Shown: positions 19,700 through 27,781 of the stretch, one piece after another
Layout: every line of letters begins with the position of its first letter
Numbering within the stretch: position 1 is the first letter of the stretch
IMG/VR virus record: IMGVR_UViG_3300042465_003753
Location: 1-33,075 of that record
Origin: a virus
DNA: 33,075 nt
Reading direction: 5' to 3' (one strand)
Notes under the pieces: generated by a model
What the model saw: only the letters and a program-made list of their open reading frames with translations
Told to the model about the DNA's origin: nothing
Databases searched by the model: none
Made by a program: the position numbers and the translations under genes

Positions 19700-19759
19700 T
19701 TTACATTTCAAAATAGCCTTTGTATAATGTTCCTACGGTCATGTTGACCGGCTAGAAAG
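19700..19759 (+). promoter_or_regulatory. Strong early promoter with start-site inverted repeat
   Basis: CTG-TTTACA (19700-19705), 17 bases, perfect TATAAT (19723-19728), seven bases, then inverted repeat CGGTCA-TGT-TGACCG (19736-19750) and CTAGAAAG (19752-19759). The expected transcription start falls at the beginning of the repeat, so the repeat could be an operator or a 5' mRNA hairpin. It drives 19776 onward, including the nucleotide-modification genes. Confidence 0.85.
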
Positions 19760-20135: not shown

Positions 20136-20413
20136 ATAACACCGAACTTGCAAACAAATTAACCATTGCTAAGCTTGAAATGGATAAAGCCATCGAGGCT
20201 TTTGAGAAGCTTAAATACCAATGGCTAGAGCTAGGCATTGACGAGATCAATACTGACATCGCCAAGGTTAAACTGACCAAGGCTATCCGCATCGCACTTG
20301 ATACCAAAGCTATTAAGGAAGAGATGCCTAAAGAATGGTGTGACAACCACAGTAAGATCTCTGAAGTTGCCACTCTCCGTATTTCTTATATCCCTCAAAT
20401 GGAGGCAGCATGA
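20132..20413 (+). CDS. Small helical protein, unknown
   Basis: A 93-residue, Lys/Glu/Ala/Ile-rich, mostly helical protein with one Cys and no membrane segment. Start ATG 20132 overlaps the stop of the papain-like gene and is preceded by AAGGAGG; the stop overlaps the next ATG (ATGA). I do not recognise a family. The tight coupling places it in the same unit as the modification genes. Confidence 0.65.
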   Translation: MNNTELANKLTIAKLEMDKAIEAFEKLKYQWLELGIDEINTDIAKVKLTKAIRIALDTKAIKEEMPKEWCDNHSKISEVATLRISYIPQMEAA

Positions 20414-21384
20414 AAATAGCAATCTATAGTCCTAACGGTACTTTAACCGATAAAGAAGGATCTCACCGTACAGCATGGGCTTACATGCGTGCTGACCAGA
20501 TCAGCCGTGATGGCCACGACGTGGATGTGATCTACACTAAGAACGAATCTAAGACCGACTGGGAGCAGTATGACAAGATCTATTGCTACCTCGGCATGGA
20601 ATGGTCTGGCGCTATTAACTTGTTTGGTGGCGCTTCTCCAGAAAATCGTGAGAAGTTTGATCGACTAATTGGCTTTGGCGACAAGCTAGAATGGCTAGAT
20701 GAGCGACCAATTGACCTTGGCGACCTAATTGCTAAAAGATGGCCTGATTTTCCAAAAGATGCTCTAAATGCTCGCGCCACAAGCGCGTCAGTCCACACAC
20801 AAAAAGCCTCGAGTTATATTATATTAGGAGACAGTCATAGTCTGAACTGGTATATCCCAGGCGCGTCAGTACTGCGTCATGATGGGAAAACTCTTTTTGG
20901 GGCGTTAGAAAGTGGCATTTCTAGCTTTCTGAAGCATACTCCTAAGAAATTGTGCGTTTGCTTCGGTAATATCGACATCCGTCACCACTTAATGCGTCAA
21001 TCTCACCCTCTTGTGGCGTTGACCGACTTAGTAGTGCGACTACAGCAGCAGCTTCATGATTATCAGAAGGAGACCGGCTGCGAAATTGAAATAGTGCAGC
21101 CTGCTTACATCGAGAATGAAAGTCGTAAGCTGCCTAAGACCGGCTGGTACAAGGGCACTCCATTTGCAGGTACATGGGCAGAGCGTGAAAAGTTACGTTC
21201 TTTGATGGACGGCTTGTTAAAAGACGCTTGCCTAAATAATGGTTGGACGTATCTTAAGTACCCAAGGTATTTTGTTAATGCACTAGATGAGATGGATGAA
21301 GACTACATGGAAAAACCAGGTTCTGTCCACATGTCTTGGGCTCATGGCCGTATGAATCGTATGTTAAGAGGGGAAGCAGAATGA
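20410..21384 (+). CDS. SGNH-hydrolase-like protein with Rossmann-like N-terminal part
   Basis: A 324-residue protein. Residues 1-115 begin MKIAIYSPNGTLTD and look like an alpha/beta Rossmann or glycosyltransferase-like domain. Residues 135-315 carry the blocks of an SGNH hydrolase: ILGDSHS (Ser142 nucleophile), CFGNID (Asn187) and GSVHMS (His307). SGNH enzymes are esterases, lipases or acyltransferases acting through an acyl-serine. It starts a run of genes joined by ATGA overlaps that lead into a hypermodification-like enzyme and a PLP enzyme, so it may act on a modified nucleotide or DNA base, for instance by acyl transfer or deprotection. That function is inference. An alternative is a capsule- or surface-modifying enzyme. 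Confidence 0.6.
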   Translation: MKIAIYSPNGTLTDKEGSHRTAWAYMRADQISRDGHDVDVIYTKNESKTDWEQYDKIYCYLGMEWSGAINLFGGASPENREKFDRLIGFGDKLEWLDERPIDLGDLIAKRWPDFPKDALNARATSASVHTQKASSYIILGDSHSLNWYIPGASVLRHDGKTLFGALESGISSFLKHTPKKLCVCFGNIDIRHHLMRQSHPLVALTDLVVRLQQQLHDYQKETGCEIEIVQPAYIENESRKLPKTGWYKGTPFAGTWAEREKLRSLMDGLLKDACLNNGWTYLKYPRYFVNALDEMDEDYMEKPGSVHMSWAHGRMNRMLRGEAE

Positions 21385-22514
21385 CTAACCTTGTAATGAC
21401 CGAGTATTACCCGGAATTCCTACGCTACCACCAGATGGCTACCTGGCAGCAGGAGCACTGCAACTTAGGAACGACACGTCACGAGGACTCGCCTTTTGAC
21501 GATGAACTTATGAAGCACGTTCACCTCTACGATGTTGTCAACCGTCGTTACGCCGGGTTTACACAGATCCTGCTTGACTTGTGGTATGGGAAATCCGAGG
21601 ATCATCCATACGATCATAAGATGCATGGCATTCGTTTGCCAATTGCTGAAGAAGCTACGGGTGTTCATGGTGTTTGGTCCTTGCCTGAGTGGTTGTATGT
21701 ATTTATGCTCCACAGACTGACAGGCTCAGGAATTAACTACGGCAAGAAGCATTCAGGTTACCACAACACGCTGCTACCAGATATTGTTGGTCTTTCAATC
21801 GAACAGATGGCTGAGAAGGTACAATGGTCGCAGTCTACGTTCTACACGTCTGTTGGTTATCAATTCCCTGCCTTTCCTAAACCAGGCAAGGGATTTAAAC
21901 GTGGCGGAGACTTCTTCTTGTCTGTGTATGCACCAGTCTTGGCAAGACAATTGGCTGATTGGTTAACGTCAGGTGAGAAGAAAGGACTTAGGGAGATTGG
22001 CGAATGGATGTTTGAATGGAATAGATCTAAAGATCTCAGAGCCTACAAATTCCAATACGCTGCTGTGGTTGCTGACATAGCCGACTTCTTCCCTGAGTTA
22101 GTCAACAAAGAGTCGCACTTCTTTTATGGTACAAACGCGGTGGAATGCTTAAGCTACTTGTTTCATAAGCCTAAGAAAGTGAAGCCAATACAATTTCTAG
22201 ATCAAATTATGGAGAGAATTTATGAAGATACTGGATCGGTCCCCTACGATGCAGAAGATATTGCTTGTGATTACATTCGCTGGATTGAATCTTATGTTCG
22301 GCCAGGACATGACTACGAGCATCTTGATCGCAACAATGTTTTTAGTAGTCACGGAATTAGTCATCATCCTTATGGACGGCAGCGGAAGCATCTTGAATTG
22401 GGCCTTGTTGCTAATTTTAATGACATCGGCGTTCATCCTTCTGATGACTATGTATTGCATAGAGCTAATATGACGGTTGAGGAATATCAAAGGAGAGTAA
22501 AAGATGGCGCATAA
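21381..22514 (+). CDS. Putative DNA base hypermodification enzyme (aGPT-PPlase/HMUDK helical-domain-like)
   Basis: A 377-residue, helix-rich protein with many His, Trp and Tyr. ATG 21381 follows GAGGGGAAG and overlaps the previous stop. The segments HLYDVVNRRYAGFTQILLDL, WSLPEWLYVFMLHRLTG, HSGYHNTLLPDIVG and especially YDAEDIACDYIRWIESY recall the helical family described in phages with hypermodified thymine (alpha-glutamyl/putrescinyl-thymine pyrophosphorylase and the helical domain of 5-hmdU DNA kinase), which has an early Asn/Arg motif and a late D-x-E-x-x-x-C-E/D-Y motif. If right, it would attach an amino compound to an activated hydroxymethyl base. The match is from memory and partial; it could be a new family. 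Coupled both sides (overlap of 11 bases with the PLP gene). Confidence 0.4.
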   Translation: MTNLVMTEYYPEFLRYHQMATWQQEHCNLGTTRHEDSPFDDELMKHVHLYDVVNRRYAGFTQILLDLWYGKSEDHPYDHKMHGIRLPIAEEATGVHGVWSLPEWLYVFMLHRLTGSGINYGKKHSGYHNTLLPDIVGLSIEQMAEKVQWSQSTFYTSVGYQFPAFPKPGKGFKRGGDFFLSVYAPVLARQLADWLTSGEKKGLREIGEWMFEWNRSKDLRAYKFQYAAVVADIADFFPELVNKESHFFYGTNAVECLSYLFHKPKKVKPIQFLDQIMERIYEDTGSVPYDAEDIACDYIRWIESYVRPGHDYEHLDRNNVFSSHGISHHPYGRQRKHLELGLVANFNDIGVHPSDDYVLHRANMTVEEYQRRVKDGA

Positions 22515-23409
22515 CAATCATGTAGTAGATGGAATCAACTACGATCTAACCTTGCATACGCGAGATGAATATCTGGAAATGACAAAGGATTGGAGTGACC
22601 CTTGCGGTGATCTAATTGTTGAGCCATTCCAATTAACAGGAGATGATCGTACCTTCCACGTAGTTCGAGAAGATCTAAACCCACTAGGTGGTACTAAAGG
22701 TCGATTGGGAGAGTTGTTGATGTCTACCATCAAGACTGATACCATTACCTATGTGGCACCTAGACAAGGCCATGCCCCTGCAGCGTTGGCAATCCTGGCT
22801 AAGAAATACAACAAACGATTAGTGCTATTTGCACCAGCCAGACAAGAAGCTAGCGTCCATCAAATGCACGCCATGGAATTAGGCGGTGAACTTAGGTGGG
22901 TTCGTTCTGCTGCCATGCCTAACTTAAACCGTGAAGCAAAGGCTTGGGCTGACAGGAACGACGCTACCTTCTTCCCTTTTGGGTTAAAGCATCCGTTAGT
23001 TACCGCTGTTATGGCTAGAGTATGTGACAACTACATGAAGAAGCATGGGCAACCTAAAGAAATGTGGACAGCCATTTCAACAGGCGTGATGAGCCGTAGT
23101 ATGCAAGTGGGCTGGCCAGACACTGACTTTCATTCGGTGGCTGTTGCCCGTAACTTAAAAGCAGGCGAAGCAGGTAGGGCTAAGATCTACAGCCACCCTT
23201 ACGAGTTTGGCCGTGGTGAAGACATGGAGACAGCGCCATTCCCTTCAGTCAAGACATACGATCTTAAAGTGCTGCGCTTTATGCGTGAACACGCTAGCGA
23301 TGGTGCCTACTTCTGGAATACCGGCTGCGACCATACAGTGACCACTGATCCTGCTACAATTAATAGTTACCGCGAATGGGGTGACAAATCTGATTTACTT
23401 AAACCGTAA
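22504..23409 (+). CDS. PLP-dependent enzyme, fold type II (TrpB / ACC-deaminase-like)
   Basis: A 301-residue enzyme. REDLNPLGGTKGRLGELL (about 55-72) matches the PLP-lysine motif of fold-type II enzymes such as ACC deaminase, D-cysteine desulfhydrase and threonine synthase (GG-x-K-x-R), with Lys65 as the Schiff-base residue. YVAPRQGHAPAALAILAKKY corresponds to the S/T-x-N-H-A substrate and helix region, with the usual Asn replaced, and AISTGVMSRSM to a phosphate-binding glycine/serine loop. Members catalyse beta-elimination, replacement or decarboxylation on amino acids. Next to a putative base hypermodification enzyme it may build or trim an amino-acid-derived group, as PLP enzymes do in thymidine hypermodification of some phages. 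Substrate unknown. Starts at ATG 22504, preceded by AAAGGAGAG. Confidence 0.65.
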   Translation: MAHNNHVVDGINYDLTLHTRDEYLEMTKDWSDPCGDLIVEPFQLTGDDRTFHVVREDLNPLGGTKGRLGELLMSTIKTDTITYVAPRQGHAPAALAILAKKYNKRLVLFAPARQEASVHQMHAMELGGELRWVRSAAMPNLNREAKAWADRNDATFFPFGLKHPLVTAVMARVCDNYMKKHGQPKEMWTAISTGVMSRSMQVGWPDTDFHSVAVARNLKAGEAGRAKIYSHPYEFGRGEDMETAPFPSVKTYDLKVLRFMREHASDGAYFWNTGCDHTVTTDPATINSYREWGDKSDLLKP

Positions 23410-23451
23410 TACTGTTTACAATGATCATCCATATTGAGAAAGGAAAGAATG

Positions 23452-23865
23452 ATGAGCATAGATGATACCTTTGGACCATTGTCCAATTATGAATCGGTGG
23501 CTGCGTTTCACGAGAAGTACGGCTTAACTTATGACGGTAAGCCTAGGTTGTTGGACGAGGATACCGTTAAATTCAGGCTTAAGTTTTTAGAGGAAGAGCT
23601 GATGGAGTTTAGGGTTTCAGCTCTAGCAGATGACTTACCAGGCATGGCTGACGCTTTGATTGATCTGGTCTATGTTGCTATGGGCACAGCTTACATGATG
23701 GGCTTACCTTGGCAGCCATTGTGGAATGAAGTGCAAAGAGCCAACATGACGAAGGTCAGGGCTAGTAGTCAAGGTCAGTCTAAGCGTGGGTCTGCCCTAG
23801 ATGTAATTAAGCCAGAAGGTTGGCGAGGGCCAGACATTGAAGGGGTGCTAGATGCAGCTAGATAA
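23452..23865 (+). CDS. MazG-like nucleotide pyrophosphohydrolase
   Basis: A 137-residue all-alpha protein. The KFRLKFLEEELMEF stretch (E-E-E-x-x-E) and DALIDLVYVAMGTAYMMGL (D-x-x-x-D) are the two metal-binding helices of the MazG/dUTPase-like NTP pyrophosphatase fold. It should hydrolyse a (d)NTP to the monophosphate and pyrophosphate. In this setting it may remove the normal nucleotide that competes with a modified one, or supply a dNMP to the hydroxymethylase. The start is ATG 23452 (ATG 23449 equally possible) with AAAGGAAAG. A CTGTTTACA at 23412-23420 lies upstream but lacks a -10 at proper spacing. Its end overlaps the next small gene. Confidence 0.8.
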   Translation: MSIDDTFGPLSNYESVAAFHEKYGLTYDGKPRLLDEDTVKFRLKFLEEELMEFRVSALADDLPGMADALIDLVYVAMGTAYMMGLPWQPLWNEVQRANMTKVRASSQGQSKRGSALDVIKPEGWRGPDIEGVLDAAR

Positions 23866-24016
23866 CATAGTGCTACCAGAATGGTGCTGGCATTCAGAGT
23901 TAGAGTGTGTAGTAAAGATCATAGGAACAGGCCATTTCCCTAGTACGGCTATGGTGCAGTTGCCAGATGACCGTGTGGTAGAAATAGAAGTCCAACATTT
24001 GGAGTTACGTAAATGA
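23852..24016 (+). CDS. 54-residue protein, unknown
   Basis: ATG 23852, preceded by GGGG, opens a 54-residue frame inside the end of the MazG-like gene and closes at TGA 24014-24016, overlapping the next ATG 24013. The product has three Trp/Cys-rich residues near WCWHSELEC and an otherwise beta-like sequence ending QHLELRK. Its exact fit between two genes, with overlaps at both ends, supports it being real. It may be a small KOW- or SH3-like barrel, but this is only a guess. Confidence 0.6.
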   Translation: MQLDNIVLPEWCWHSELECVVKIIGTGHFPSTAMVQLPDDRVVEIEVQHLELRK

Positions 24017-24885
24017 AATACATATTAGAAGGCCCTGATGGAGCTGGTAAGACTACGCTAGCTGTGACTTTAGGTGGTGACTCTTGGCACCACAGCTATT
24101 ATCCTGACCCTAGGGTAATGTTGACTGAATCCATTAAATCTATCATAAGCGATGCTAAAACCGTGGATAGGTGCTATCATTCTGAGTTAGTTTATTCACC
24201 TATCTATCATAAAACTACGCAGCGCTATGGCCACCGTACGCGCATGATTGACAGGATGATTCTATCTGAGGGTCGTATCATCATTGCCTGCTTGCCTGAT
24301 TATGAGACTTGCCACAAAGCTTGGTCTAGTGGCCGTGAAGAGATGGTATCTGACGAAGCTGAGTTTAAAAAGATCTACGATGCTTACGCTGCGATGACTT
24401 ACAACACGCCACACGTAACTTATGACTGGGAAAAAGAAGGTTTAGATGATCTAGCTGAAAAGCTTGACGCTATTGAGATCTACGAAAACAAAGGCCCTGG
24501 CATAGGTAACTTTAAGCCTGGTAATATCTTAATTGTTGGTGACACTGCGTCAAACCCAATGATTGATAACGTCGATTTGCCATTTGTTCACTGGGAAGGT
24601 TGCAGTCCATGGCTTGCCATGCAGCTTGACTACGCAGGCATTCCTGAGTCAGAACTATACTGGGTTAACGGCTTCCGTCTTGACGGTGGCATTCAATCAA
24701 AAGACTTTGTTGAGAAGCTACAACCACGTTTGATTATTGCTTTAGGCGATGAGGCAGCCAGGTGGTGTGAGATAGCTGACCTTGAGCACCGCCGTGTTGA
24801 GCATCCACAATATTGGAAACGTTTCCGCCATGCCGATCAATATCCGTTAGTGAATCTATTGCGAGGTCATTATGAAGAAAACTAA
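24013..24885 (+). CDS. P-loop (d)NMP/DNA-base kinase fused to a UDG-like domain
   Basis: A 290-residue two-domain protein. Residues 1-155 are a thymidylate-kinase-like P-loop kinase: EGPDGAGKTTL (6-16) and the DR motif in KTVDRCYHSELVYSP (50-63). Residues 168-285 look like a uracil-DNA-glycosylase-fold domain: NILIVGDTASNP (171-182), a Cys-Ser-x-x-Leu helix, ELYWVNGF, PRLIIALGDEAARW and a late HPQYWKRF matching the HP motif of UDG families. The usual catalytic Asp/Asn-Pro-Gly loop is altered, so glycosylase activity is uncertain. Kinases of this type phosphorylate dTMP or, in hypermodifying phages, 5-hydroxymethyl-uracil in DNA; a base-recognising domain would suit the latter. It is coupled to both neighbours by overlaps. 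The kinase part is firm, the C-terminal call moderate. Confidence 0.65.
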   Translation: MKYILEGPDGAGKTTLAVTLGGDSWHHSYYPDPRVMLTESIKSIISDAKTVDRCYHSELVYSPIYHKTTQRYGHRTRMIDRMILSEGRIIIACLPDYETCHKAWSSGREEMVSDEAEFKKIYDAYAAMTYNTPHVTYDWEKEGLDDLAEKLDAIEIYENKGPGIGNFKPGNILIVGDTASNPMIDNVDLPFVHWEGCSPWLAMQLDYAGIPESELYWVNGFRLDGGIQSKDFVEKLQPRLIIALGDEAARWCEIADLEHRRVEHPQYWKRFRHADQYPLVNLLRGHYEEN

Positions 24886-25534
24886 GGACATTCGTGATGA
24901 GTTCGTTGCTAAGTTAAGAGCGCAGGACTTTGTGACTGATAAGACAGGAGTCAAGACCATTGAGATCATGAATGCCTGCTTCTTGGCTGATGATGGAGCC
25001 TTGTTTGGTATAGTTAACGAAGACTATATTAAGCGTGAGCTTGCTTGGTACCTATCTACATCTCGCTATATCGATGACATACCAGCGCCTGTGCCAGAGA
25101 TCTGGAAGAAGGTAGCTAGTAAGGAAGGCAAGATCAATTCGAACTACGGCTGGTGCATTTACTCCACTGAGAATGGCAGTCAATACAAGCACTGTGTAGC
25201 TGAGCTAATAAACAATCCTGACTCTCGTAGGGCTGTGATGATCTATACCAGGCCCTGGATGCATGAGGACTATAACGAAGACGGCATGAGTGACTTTATA
25301 TGCACCAACACCGTTCAGTATTTGGTAAGAGACGGTAAGGTTCATGCCTTAGTCTACATGAGATCTAACGATGCTGTCTTTGGTTATAAGAACGACTACG
25401 CCTGGCAGGAGTATGTGCTTTATTCGGTTGCTGCTGAGGTAGGGCTGCCTGTTGGTGACATTTATTGGAATGTGGCAAGCTTACACATCTATGAGAGACA
25501 TTTTAACCTGGTTGAAATCTATGACAAGGCCTAG
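24872..25534 (+). CDS. Deoxypyrimidine hydroxymethylase (thymidylate synthase family, T4 gp42-like)
   Basis: A 220-residue thymidylate-synthase-fold enzyme that should add a hydroxymethyl group from methylene-tetrahydrofolate to C5 of dCMP or dUMP. The nucleophile is Cys144 in FICTNTVQ; RSND (164-167) binds phosphate, and WNVASLHIYERH holds the conserved His205 and Tyr207. The block FGYKNDYAWQ closely matches T4 dCMP hydroxymethylase (FGYRNDYAWQ): Asp175 stands where thymidylate synthase has the Asn that reads uracil, which favours dCMP as substrate. The size is slightly shorter than T4 gp42. ATG 24872 overlaps the kinase gene and the dCMP deaminase gene overlaps its end. The family is sure, the exact substrate is inferred. 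Confidence 0.85.
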   Translation: MKKTKDIRDEFVAKLRAQDFVTDKTGVKTIEIMNACFLADDGALFGIVNEDYIKRELAWYLSTSRYIDDIPAPVPEIWKKVASKEGKINSNYGWCIYSTENGSQYKHCVAELINNPDSRRAVMIYTRPWMHEDYNEDGMSDFICTNTVQYLVRDGKVHALVYMRSNDAVFGYKNDYAWQEYVLYSVAAEVGLPVGDIYWNVASLHIYERHFNLVEIYDKA

Positions 25535-25964
25535 CTTAGACGAGTACTTCGGCGTCATGGCTGAGGTGGTAGCTATGCGTGGTACTTGCCCTAGAAGGAA
25601 TGTCGGCTGCGTGCTAGTATCTGATGACAACAAGGTACTAGCTACAGGATACAACGGTGTGCCTTCTGGCTTTGCCCACTGTATAGACGAACCATGCGAA
25701 GGGGCCAAGTATAGGTCAGGCTTAGGCTTGGACAAATGCGAAGCTATCCATGCTGAACAAAACGCGCTGCTTCAAGTGGCTGATGTAAAGATGATCGAGA
25801 CTGCTTATTGCACGACCGCGCCTTGCATTCATTGCTTGAAGCTGCTCTTAAATACTGGTTGCAAAAGAATCGTGTTCAATAAGGATTACCCGCATAGCGT
25901 ATCAAGTAAGGCGCTATGGGAGAAAGCCGGCAGGGTTTGGCAACAATTTGAATTGGAAGTCTAA
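25521..25964 (+). CDS. dCMP deaminase
   Basis: A 147-residue zinc enzyme that converts dCMP to dUMP. The zinc site is HAEQNAL (His77, catalytic Glu79) and PCIHC (Cys102, Cys105), and GYNGVPSGFAHC, with an extra Cys/His-containing region before HAE, is typical of dCMP rather than cytidine deaminases. The start is ATG 25521, inside the hydroxymethylase gene, with only a weak ribosome site, so translation probably depends on coupling. The stop overlaps the polymerase start (TAATG). It would feed dUMP to thymidylate or hydroxymethyl-dUMP synthesis, or lower the dCMP pool. Confidence 0.92.
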   Translation: MTRPSLDEYFGVMAEVVAMRGTCPRRNVGCVLVSDDNKVLATGYNGVPSGFAHCIDEPCEGAKYRSGLGLDKCEAIHAEQNALLQVADVKMIETAYCTTAPCIHCLKLLLNTGCKRIVFNKDYPHSVSSKALWEKAGRVWQQFELEV

Positions 25965-27781
25965 TGAATGATCTACCAGAATTACGTGGTAAGGGGCCTA
26001 TTGCTATCGATACCGAGACGTGCGATCCAGAGTTGCTTGACAATGGACCAGGTTGGGGTCGAGGCAAAGGTTATATAGTAGGGATTTCGGTTGCTGCTGG
26101 CGGTGAGAGCTACTACATGCCAATCCGCCATGAAGGTGGTGGCAACATGGATCGTGATCAGGTATTGAAATGGGCTAATGAACAGTTCGGCGGGTTAGAG
26201 CCTAAGGTCTTTGCCAATGCTAACTACGATCTTGGCTGGTTAAAGTGGGAAGGTGTTACCGTTAAAGGTGAGATCTGGGACGTGCAGCTAGCTGAACCAC
26301 TCTTGGATGAATACGCAAGATCTTATTCGTTAGACTCGCTGCTTGGTAAGTATGGGTTAGGTGGCAAGATCCAAGATGACATGTACGAGAAGCTTCATAC
26401 AGCCTTTGGTGGACCTAAGGGTCGACGCCAAGCCGGTAATATCTGGAAAGCACCGGCAAGTTGGGTGGCAGAATACGCTAAAGGCGACGTGGACCGGTTA
26501 GCTGAGTTGTTCCTATTGCAGAAGCAGGAGTTAGAACGTCAAGATCTATGGCGAGTGTACGAGGTAGAAGCTAAGCTTTGCCCTATGCTGGTTGACATGC
26601 GTTTACGTGGCGTCCGCGTTGATGTTAAAAAGGCTAAGCAGTTGGACGATGATTGGTCAGCTCAGATCGAAGTGTATGGTCAAGAGTTTCCTATCGAAGA
26701 TGTGAACAAAGCCTCAGCGTTAGAGACTTATTGCAAGAAGAAAGGAATTGAATACCCTACCACAGCGAAAGGCAATCCTTCTTTTGAAGGGGCATGGCTC
26801 AAGGCAAACTTACCTATTGTCTACGAGATCCGCCGACTTTTAAAGGCGCGTGATACCTTTGTTCGTGGTTATATACTAGACAAAGAAGTGAATGGGAGGT
26901 TATATGGAACATTTAATCAGCTTAGATCTGATGAATATGGTACTGTTTCAGGTAGACTTAGCAGTTCTAACCCTAACCTTCAGAACATCCCTGCTCGAGA
27001 TGAGGAAATTGGGCCTTTGGTCAGAAGCTTGTTCTTGCCAGACGAAGGTGAGATCATGTCAGCACAGGATTGGAGTCAGATTGAATTCAGAATGCTGACC
27101 CACTATGGTGTAGGCCGAGGAGCTGAGTTAGCCAGGTCGATGTATCGTGAAGATCCAGCTACTGACTTTCATACGATGGTGTCAGAAATAACAGGGGTCC
27201 CTAGAAAGCCAGCTAAGAGCATTAACTTTGGTCTTGTCTATGGAATGGGCAAAGCAAAGCTTGCCTCAGAGCTAGGAATGAACCTTAGCGAAGCAGAAAG
27301 TATCTTTGCATTGTACCATGAGAAAATGCCCTTTGTGCGTGAGACGTATAACCTGGCAGCCAAAAGGGCAGGGTCCAGAGGTTATGTCAAGACTATTCTT
27401 GGACGGCGTGCTAGGTTTAATATGTGGGAGTCTGATTCGTGGGGAGTTCGTGAGGATGCCGTCGATGACCGAGGACTTGCCATTGAGAAGTGGGGCAAGG
27501 TGCGTAGAGCATATACCCATAAGGCATTGAACAGGATCCTGCAAGGTTCTGCTGCTGATATAAACAAGATGGCCATGATTAAAATGGTCGAAGAAGGAGT
27601 GACAGGATCCATTGGTGTGCCGTTAATGACGGTTCACGATGAATTGGTGTGGACAGCGCCAGGTACAAAAGAAGGGATTGAAGCCTTAGAACATGCAGGC
27701 AGGATCATGTGTGGCTTTGATCTAAAGATACCGTTGGCAATCGATGATGAACGAGGTGAAAATTGGGGGAGTGTAAAATAG
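25964..27781 (+). CDS. Family A DNA polymerase with 3'-5' exonuclease
   Basis: A 605-residue replicative polymerase. The proofreading domain has IAIDTETC (Asp16, Glu18), NANYDLGWL (Asp89) and YAKGDVDRL (Tyr171, Asp175). The polymerase domain has motif A SAQDWSQIEFRML (Asp369), motif B RKPAKSINFGLVYG (Arg414, Lys418, Phe422, Tyr426) and motif C TVHDELVW (Asp559). There is no 5'-nuclease domain, as usual for phage polymerases. Phe422 is at the place of E. coli Pol I Phe762, a position that varies among phages and affects nucleotide discrimination. The gene directly follows dCMP deaminase, so the polymerase and the special nucleotide genes are made together. Confidence 0.96.
   Translation: MNDLPELRGKGPIAIDTETCDPELLDNGPGWGRGKGYIVGISVAAGGESYYMPIRHEGGGNMDRDQVLKWANEQFGGLEPKVFANANYDLGWLKWEGVTVKGEIWDVQLAEPLLDEYARSYSLDSLLGKYGLGGKIQDDMYEKLHTAFGGPKGRRQAGNIWKAPASWVAEYAKGDVDRLAELFLLQKQELERQDLWRVYEVEAKLCPMLVDMRLRGVRVDVKKAKQLDDDWSAQIEVYGQEFPIEDVNKASALETYCKKKGIEYPTTAKGNPSFEGAWLKANLPIVYEIRRLLKARDTFVRGYILDKEVNGRLYGTFNQLRSDEYGTVSGRLSSSNPNLQNIPARDEEIGPLVRSLFLPDEGEIMSAQDWSQIEFRMLTHYGVGRGAELARSMYREDPATDFHTMVSEITGVPRKPAKSINFGLVYGMGKAKLASELGMNLSEAESIFALYHEKMPFVRETYNLAAKRAGSRGYVKTILGRRARFNMWESDSWGVREDAVDDRGLAIEKWGKVRRAYTHKALNRILQGSAADINKMAMIKMVEEGVTGSIGVPLMTVHDELVWTAPGTKEGIEALEHAGRIMCGFDLKIPLAIDDERGENWGSVK

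Follow-up and report, generated by a model that had tools for sequence, protein, structure and literature searches.

A viral gene cassette proposed to supply 5-hydroxymethylcytosine in the manner of phage T4 and to decorate it by a different set of tailoring genes

We analyse here a run of eight tightly joined genes that leads into a family A DNA polymerase gene in the IMG/VR virus record IMGVR_UViG_3300042465_003753 (33,075 bases; this whole stretch of DNA is called the window). Based on the analysis, we propose that 5-hydroxymethylcytosine (5hmC) is installed in the phage genome by the cassette and subsequently decorated by means of three of the cassette's products, namely an all-helical protein (HEL), a fold-type II pyridoxal phosphate enzyme (PLP) and an SGNH-like protein (SGNH), a reading that we regard as probable. 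Its parts are supported to different degrees: synthesis of 5-hydroxymethyl-dCMP by the cassette is strongly supported by sequence comparison, the action of HEL, PLP and SGNH on 5hmC is supported by linkage and fold, and the addition of a further chemical group to 5hmC is probable. The enzyme set is found in hundreds of uncultivated viruses, and the full set is found in no sequenced phage isolate. What would be new here is a phage DNA hypermodification in which a T4-type supply of 5hmC is combined with an SGNH enzyme and with tailoring genes of the amine type.

The hydroxymethylase, the kinase and the target base

The base on which the cassette would act is indicated by the hydroxymethylase, encoded at 24872-25534 (+ strand, as are all genes of the run). 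The protein matches the T4 dCMP hydroxymethylase (PDB 1b49) with E 4.2e-83, while its best match to a thymidylate synthase has 2e-13. In the alignment the catalytic residue is Cys144, and Asp175 stands at the position of Asp179 of the T4 enzyme, a site for which Asn mutants have been deposited as 6l18 and 6a9a. Residue comparison finds Asp also in the hydroxymethylases of 44RR (gp42), AXL3 (gp28) and MW202621, whereas the thymine hypermodifiers M6, Vi01, PaMx11 and W-14 have Asn instead. The same division is seen more broadly, with Asp in 52 of the 52 motif-scored copies on contigs that carry relatives of the cassette and Asn in all 17 motif-scored copies on M6-type contigs; one more copy near HEL, missed by the motif, reads GYRND. 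It is thus strongly supported by the sequence that the window enzyme is an orthologue of T4 gp42, specific for dCMP, with 5hmC rather than 5-hydroxymethyluracil (5hmU) as the starting base. As the Asp is of the dCMP type, the base would be cytosine, and the thymidine pathway is the wrong frame. The initial annotation of this DNA had proposed a covalently modified pyrimidine along the lines of the thymidine pathway of M6 and ViI; a cassette for modification of a DNA pyrimidine is supported, with its parts linked across many viruses, while the thymidine frame does not stand.

Around the hydroxymethylase, the dCMP deaminase (25521-25964, with the start inferred; PF00383 E 2e-20, phrog_174 E 1e-35), the MazG-like all-alpha NTP pyrophosphatase (23452-23865; PRA-PH E 2e-13, phrog_671 E 2e-27) and a P-loop kinase resemble the set that accompanies gp42 in T4. 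By analogy with T4 gp56, we propose a dCTPase role for the MazG-like enzyme. It is noted that in a related cassette (L008:4720-5475) the MazG domain is fused to the N-terminal domain of a dATP/dGTP diphosphohydrolase (PF18909).

The kinase (KIN, 24013-24885) consists of a thymidylate-kinase-like P-loop domain and a C-terminal domain resembling uracil-DNA glycosylase (UDG), as had been read earlier from the letters alone. This assignment is supported by phrog_761 (E 3e-13) and by the match of the C-terminal domain to stand-alone UDG-like proteins encoded beside HEL (hhalign P 2e-5), one stand-alone relative matching PF03167 with E 0.002, which is under the cut-off. Homologues of the fusion occur in Stenotrophomonas phage AXL3, PW916 and MW202621; no HEL, SGNH or PLP gene was found next to them. 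Because of this, and because the other cassettes have no recurring small P-loop kinase in the neighbourhood of HEL, KIN is probably a nucleotide (5-hydroxymethyl-dCMP, hmdCMP) kinase rather than a DNA-base kinase, and the earlier suggestion that it phosphorylates the hydroxymethyl group in DNA is unlikely. No kinase of the T4 gp1 type was found in the HEL contigs, which are mostly fragments; 44RR has one. It was reported that of 37 enzymes only 2 cut AXL3 DNA, and that the sites of both consist of A and T alone (PMC7504290). AXL3 encodes the KIN fusion together with an Asp-type hydroxymethylase, and the restriction pattern agrees with an enzyme of this type. Since none of HEL, SGNH and PLP was found near its KIN, the restriction data speak for modified C or G and not for a HEL-type decoration. 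Note also that M6 gp48 (L018:8833-9339), near the M6 hypermodification genes, looks by eye like a protein of the UDG superfamily. Domains of the UDG type may recur in hypermodification cassettes.

HEL, PLP and SGNH and their linkage across viruses

HEL is encoded at 21381-22514. No match to the window protein was found among the Pfam, PHROG or NCBIfam models, and its relatives have no convincing Pfam match. The predicted structure (pLDDT 88, pTM 0.89) is all-helical, and in comparison with the PDB its 19 best matches are all helix-hairpin-helix (HhH) DNA glycosylases, with Z from 8.1 (AGOG) to 4.2, values that are middling for a helical protein, the next fold following at Z 3.9. In comparison with predicted structures of viral proteins, those neighbours of HEL that have names are an amino acid:DNA transferase, aGPT-PPlase1, the SP10 5-hmdU DNA kinase and HMUDK_hel of W-14, below which stand endonuclease III and some weak unrelated matches. 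One relative of HEL in BFVD, with 52% identity, is named ADDT, and the Foldseek comparison of HEL with an ADDT-named protein gives E 1.9e-3, probability 1.00 and TM 0.40. As judged from the predicted structure, HEL appears to have the fold of the hypermodification group (aGPT-PPlase/HMUDK_hel/ADDT), yet it is no sequence member of these families: the ADDT profile (PF18724) matches none of 45 HEL proteins with an E of 1 or less and nothing in the window with an E of 10 or less, and with an in-house ADDT profile HEL does not rise above shuffled controls. Kinship by profile to ADDT, HMUDK_hel, a second helical family (HEL2) or the C-terminus of the 44RR fusion described below was rejected, with nothing above shuffled or unrelated controls, which leaves a link at the level of the fold. 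The likeness to the helical hypermodification family that the initial annotation had seen in this product thus holds for the fold and fails for every sequence profile, and the structure search leads to HhH DNA glycosylases and viral DNA-modification proteins. We propose that HEL is a putative transferase acting on 5hmC in DNA. As the ADDT name on the database relative indicates, a HEL-type helical protein has been noticed before, and priority for the exact gene set is uncertain.

The PLP enzyme (22504-23409) matches phrog_7093 with E 1e-38 and PALP with E 1e-6, the latter under the curated cut-off. With phage M6 gp52 it has 60 of 233 aligned residues identical, and both have the Lys and a PFP..YDxKxW motif in common, which marks the two enzymes as homologous by sequence. 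Lys65, the Schiff-base lysine, is invariant among the relatives. The enzyme resembles threonine dehydratase and cysteine synthase more than sugar aminotransferase. The M6-like cassette of SN1, a close relative of M6, contains a hydroxymethylase, Nmad5, two aGPT-PPlases, a nucleotide kinase, a radical S-adenosylmethionine (rSAM) enzyme and a PLP enzyme (PMC9476957), and it is to this last enzyme that M6 gp52 corresponds (PMC9476957). In a search made without a positive control, no PLP homologue was found in 44RR, PTm1, AXL3 or MW202621.

The SGNH protein (20410-21384) has two domains, an alpha/beta N-terminal domain at residues ~1-125 and an SGNH/GDSL domain at ~133-324 (model pLDDT 90). Residues 133-324 match GDSL/SGNH enzymes with Z ~15, and Ser142 (block I) and His307 (block V) are invariant in 47 relatives. 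The earlier assignment of this product to the SGNH-like proteins, and its placement outside the described hypermodification pathways, are both borne out, the former by fold, though of the canonical SGNH residues one varies and another is absent, as discussed below. For this protein we propose the role of a tailoring acyl-transferase or esterase. A glycosyltransferase origin of the N-terminal domain, for which the profile match is weak (P 0.007), is not claimed. The full-length structural matches are the N-terminus of ORF233c of Aeromonas phage 31, a 348-residue protein, one uncultured phage protein and a PTm1 protein.

In the Aeromonas phages 44RR and 31, the SGNH homologue is the N-terminal half of a 795-residue fusion (ORF233c), the C-terminus of which, tested in 44RR, matches HMUDK_hel weakly (E 0.0036 and 4e-4). 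Gene 42, denB and alc, but no T4-type glucosyltransferase, were reported for the Aeromonas phages 44RR, 31 and 25 (PMC2993671). With gene 42 present and no glucosyltransferase of the T4 type, the cytosine chemistry of 44RR and 31 is left unexplained. Directly upstream of the SGNH-HMUDK_hel fusion lies a sodium:solute symporter gene (L004:6408-7931, which is 44RR ORF234c; L188:1877-3433), and the symporter might import a precursor of the modification. In Aeromonas phage 25 (L187:1261-4529) and IME13 (L189), the SGNH homologue is without the helical domain, and its gene stands beside a UDP-galactopyranose mutase and a protein with distant relatives annotated as glycosyltransferase; this arrangement is kept in tulaneviruses with gp42. 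This suggests a furanosyl-type decoration of 5hmC in phages of the phage 25/IME13 type.

The linkage of these genes was counted mainly over 42 loci in which HEL has 4 kb or more on each side. Of these well-flanked loci, 37 contain PLP, 36 SGNH and 31 the gp42-type hydroxymethylase, and the genes stand in several different orders. Many of the HEL contigs resemble T4 in having gp46-like and clamp-loader-like genes in the vicinity, and others have different contexts. A scan of IMG/VR gave 368 HEL relatives, 50,697 phage records gave none, and among 84,980 bacterial and archaeal genomes HEL occurs on 4 contigs, all from metagenome-assembled genomes and possibly viral. Over all 87 loci, HEL2, with its two query groups pooled, lies 3' of HEL in 40, and the small UDG-like protein lies 5' of HEL in 23. 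HEL2 (L013:4896-6059, L011:3559-4563 and others) has a C-terminal motif pattern like that of HEL and no convincing Pfam match. In 10 of the 87 loci, a gene resembling C5-cytosine methyltransferases follows SGNH (L010:11128-12327, L011:6507-7727, L058, L083); among the four copies printed, the PC motif reads CPCAG in three and CPCGG in L010.

Proposed pathway and its alternatives

The proposed pathway is as follows. The MazG-like enzyme would lower dCTP, the gp42-type enzyme would convert dCMP to hmdCMP, the P-loop kinase may raise hmdCMP towards hmdCTP, the dCMP deaminase would supply the dTMP pool, and the PolA-type polymerase would presumably incorporate hmdC. HEL may then flip out 5hmC and attach to its hydroxymethyl carbon a small metabolite, which would most likely be an amino acid; the PLP enzyme may rework this adduct, as was proposed for its M6 homologue; and SGNH may add or remove an acyl group, or perform a related transfer, on the product. 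The cytosine so formed would be bulky and would block host nucleases. To our knowledge, the characterised amino-type DNA hypermodifications are all on thymine; the decorations of cytosine are mostly sugars. A more specific claim would be that this is the first non-sugar, amino-acid- or acyl-type cytosine hypermodification in DNA, spread over a widespread class of viruses and made by a new family of glycosylase-fold transferases together with PLP and SGNH enzymes, with no dedicated DNA-base kinase in the cassette; this we put forward as a tentative, if serious, possibility.

Several observations weigh against the decoration of 5hmC by HEL, PLP and SGNH. HEL has no detectable sequence kinship to ADDT or HMUDK_hel, the link being the predicted fold. 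No small P-loop kinase or dedicated DNA-base kinase recurs near HEL, so that no candidate for the activation of the hydroxymethyl group recurs with it. AXL3, besides showing none of the three genes near KIN, gave no PLP match genome-wide. On a minority of contigs HEL and HEL2 are present while SGNH and PLP are absent, and no hydroxymethylase was found there. Finally, block III of SGNH has Asn in 31 of 47 relatives and Ser in the other 16, and the canonical Asp of the DxxH motif is missing, with none three residues before His307, so the reaction may be unusual.

By contrast, if the cassette followed the M6/ViI type of thymidine hypermodification, 5hmU would enter the DNA, the P-loop kinase would phosphorylate it, and its conversion would fall to the helical and PLP enzymes. 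The homology of PLP to M6 gp52, the likeness of the HEL fold to ADDT, aGPT-PPlase and HMUDK_hel proteins and the presence of a P-loop kinase all agree with this, but the hydroxymethylase is an orthologue of gp42 with Asp where every scored M6-type copy has Asn, PF18723 and PF18724, found in all of M6, Vi01, PaMx11 and W-14, are absent from the window by profile, and the kinase does not recur with HEL. We consider this explanation very unlikely. It might also be that the base is 5hmC and that it is decorated with a sugar, with HEL, PLP and SGNH making or tailoring that sugar. This would accord with the UDP-galactopyranose mutase and putative glycosyltransferase adjoining the SGNH homologue of phage 25 and IME13, and with the fact that the 5hmC hypermodifications known so far are mostly sugars. 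However, none of the eight window products matches a glycosyltransferase family (the record may be a fragment, so that one is possible elsewhere), the HEL fold is like that of DNA glycosylases, and PLP is like threonine dehydratase or cysteine synthase rather than a sugar aminotransferase; a sugar is unlikely on this evidence.

A further explanation is that the DNA contains plain 5hmC only, and that HEL, PLP and SGNH have some other purpose, for example taking over the host, the metabolism of small molecules or defence against base-excision nucleases. The supply genes alone would be enough for 5hmC, and HEL, PLP and SGNH are without a known substrate. Against this speak the stable linkage of the three genes to the hydroxymethylase across several gene orders, the fusion of SGNH with an HMUDK_hel-like domain in Aeromonas phages of the hmC type, and the fact that the named viral fold neighbours of HEL are DNA-modification enzymes. 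We therefore regard plain 5hmC as quite improbable.

Known systems and the structure of the gene run

With the 5hmC system of T4 (gp56, gp42, gp1, dCMP deaminase and glucosyltransferases), the window has in common the orthologous hydroxymethylase, a dCTPase-like enzyme, a nucleotide kinase and the deaminase, and its cassette has HEL, PLP and SGNH as proposed decoration genes and no glycosyltransferase match. The M6/ViI set consists of a hydroxymethylase, a kinase, aGPT-PPlase1/HMUDK_hel, aGPT-PPlase2/ADDT, a PLP enzyme and rSAM; there, as in the window, the gene for a family A polymerase is preceded by genes for hydroxymethyl-nucleotide synthesis, for a helical protein resembling glycosylases and for a homologous PLP enzyme. 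The differences are that the hydroxymethylase of the window is of the cytosine and not the uracil type, that ADDT and HMUDK_hel have no sequence match, that there is no conserved base kinase, that no rSAM was found in the cassette, and that the SGNH enzyme is extra. The loci of 44RR and 31 (ORF233c) and of phage 25 share with the window a homologous SGNH, in phages that have gp42 and no T4-type glucosyltransferase, whereas 44RR and 31 have an HMUDK_hel-like C-terminus in place of a separate HEL, and no PLP homologue was found in 44RR. The pentosyl-5hmC of RB69 and Thanatos is a decorated 5hmC from gp42-type synthesis, as is proposed for the window, but there the sugar is transferred by glycosyltransferases, none of which is matched in the window cassette.

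It is noted that this type of cassette is present in 368 or more viral stretches, whereas HEL occurs in no phage record, and that with this cassette there is a definite candidate to account for the unexplained chemistry of cytosine in the cultured Aeromonas phages 44RR and 31. It may also be a source of enzymes for labelling 5hmC.

All eight open reading frames (ORFs) at 20410-25964 were confirmed in position and strand, and they run into the polymerase gene (PolA, 25964-27781; PF00476 E 6e-57), the final gene of the run. SGNH overlaps HEL by 4 nt and HEL overlaps PLP by 11 nt; after PLP comes a gap of 42 nt, the sole gap of the run, followed by overlaps of 14 nt between the MazG-like gene and a gene for a 54-residue protein (23852-24016), 4 nt between the latter and KIN, 14 nt between KIN and the hydroxymethylase gene, and 14 nt between this and the deaminase gene. 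The 54-residue protein, the function of which is unassigned, is without a family match in the profile searches; its counterpart in contig L007 has 61% identity, with a ratio of nonsynonymous to synonymous substitution rates (dN/dS) of 0.13. Upstream of the run, a promoter-like site TTTACA-17-TATAAT lies at 19700-19728 (+), a consensus match of a kind that is about as frequent as expected from shuffled sequence. For the polymerase the best NCBIfam model is DpoZ, the aminoadenine polymerase, with 336 bits against a cut-off of 500; a Z-genome was rejected because of this score and because there is no PurZ-type gene on the record.

The profile searches bear out the PLP, MazG, gp42-like hydroxymethylase, dCMP deaminase and PolA assignments of the initial annotation, and its description of eight tightly joined genes followed by a polymerase agrees with the ORF positions and with contig L007. 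There all nine genes, including PolA and the gene for the 54-residue protein, are kept in order with 61-93% amino-acid identity, and dN/dS is 0.04-0.16 for 8 of the 9 genes, that of the hydroxymethylase being not computable as dS is saturated. This conserved order and purifying selection imply that the genes of the run are real genes rather than chance ORFs.

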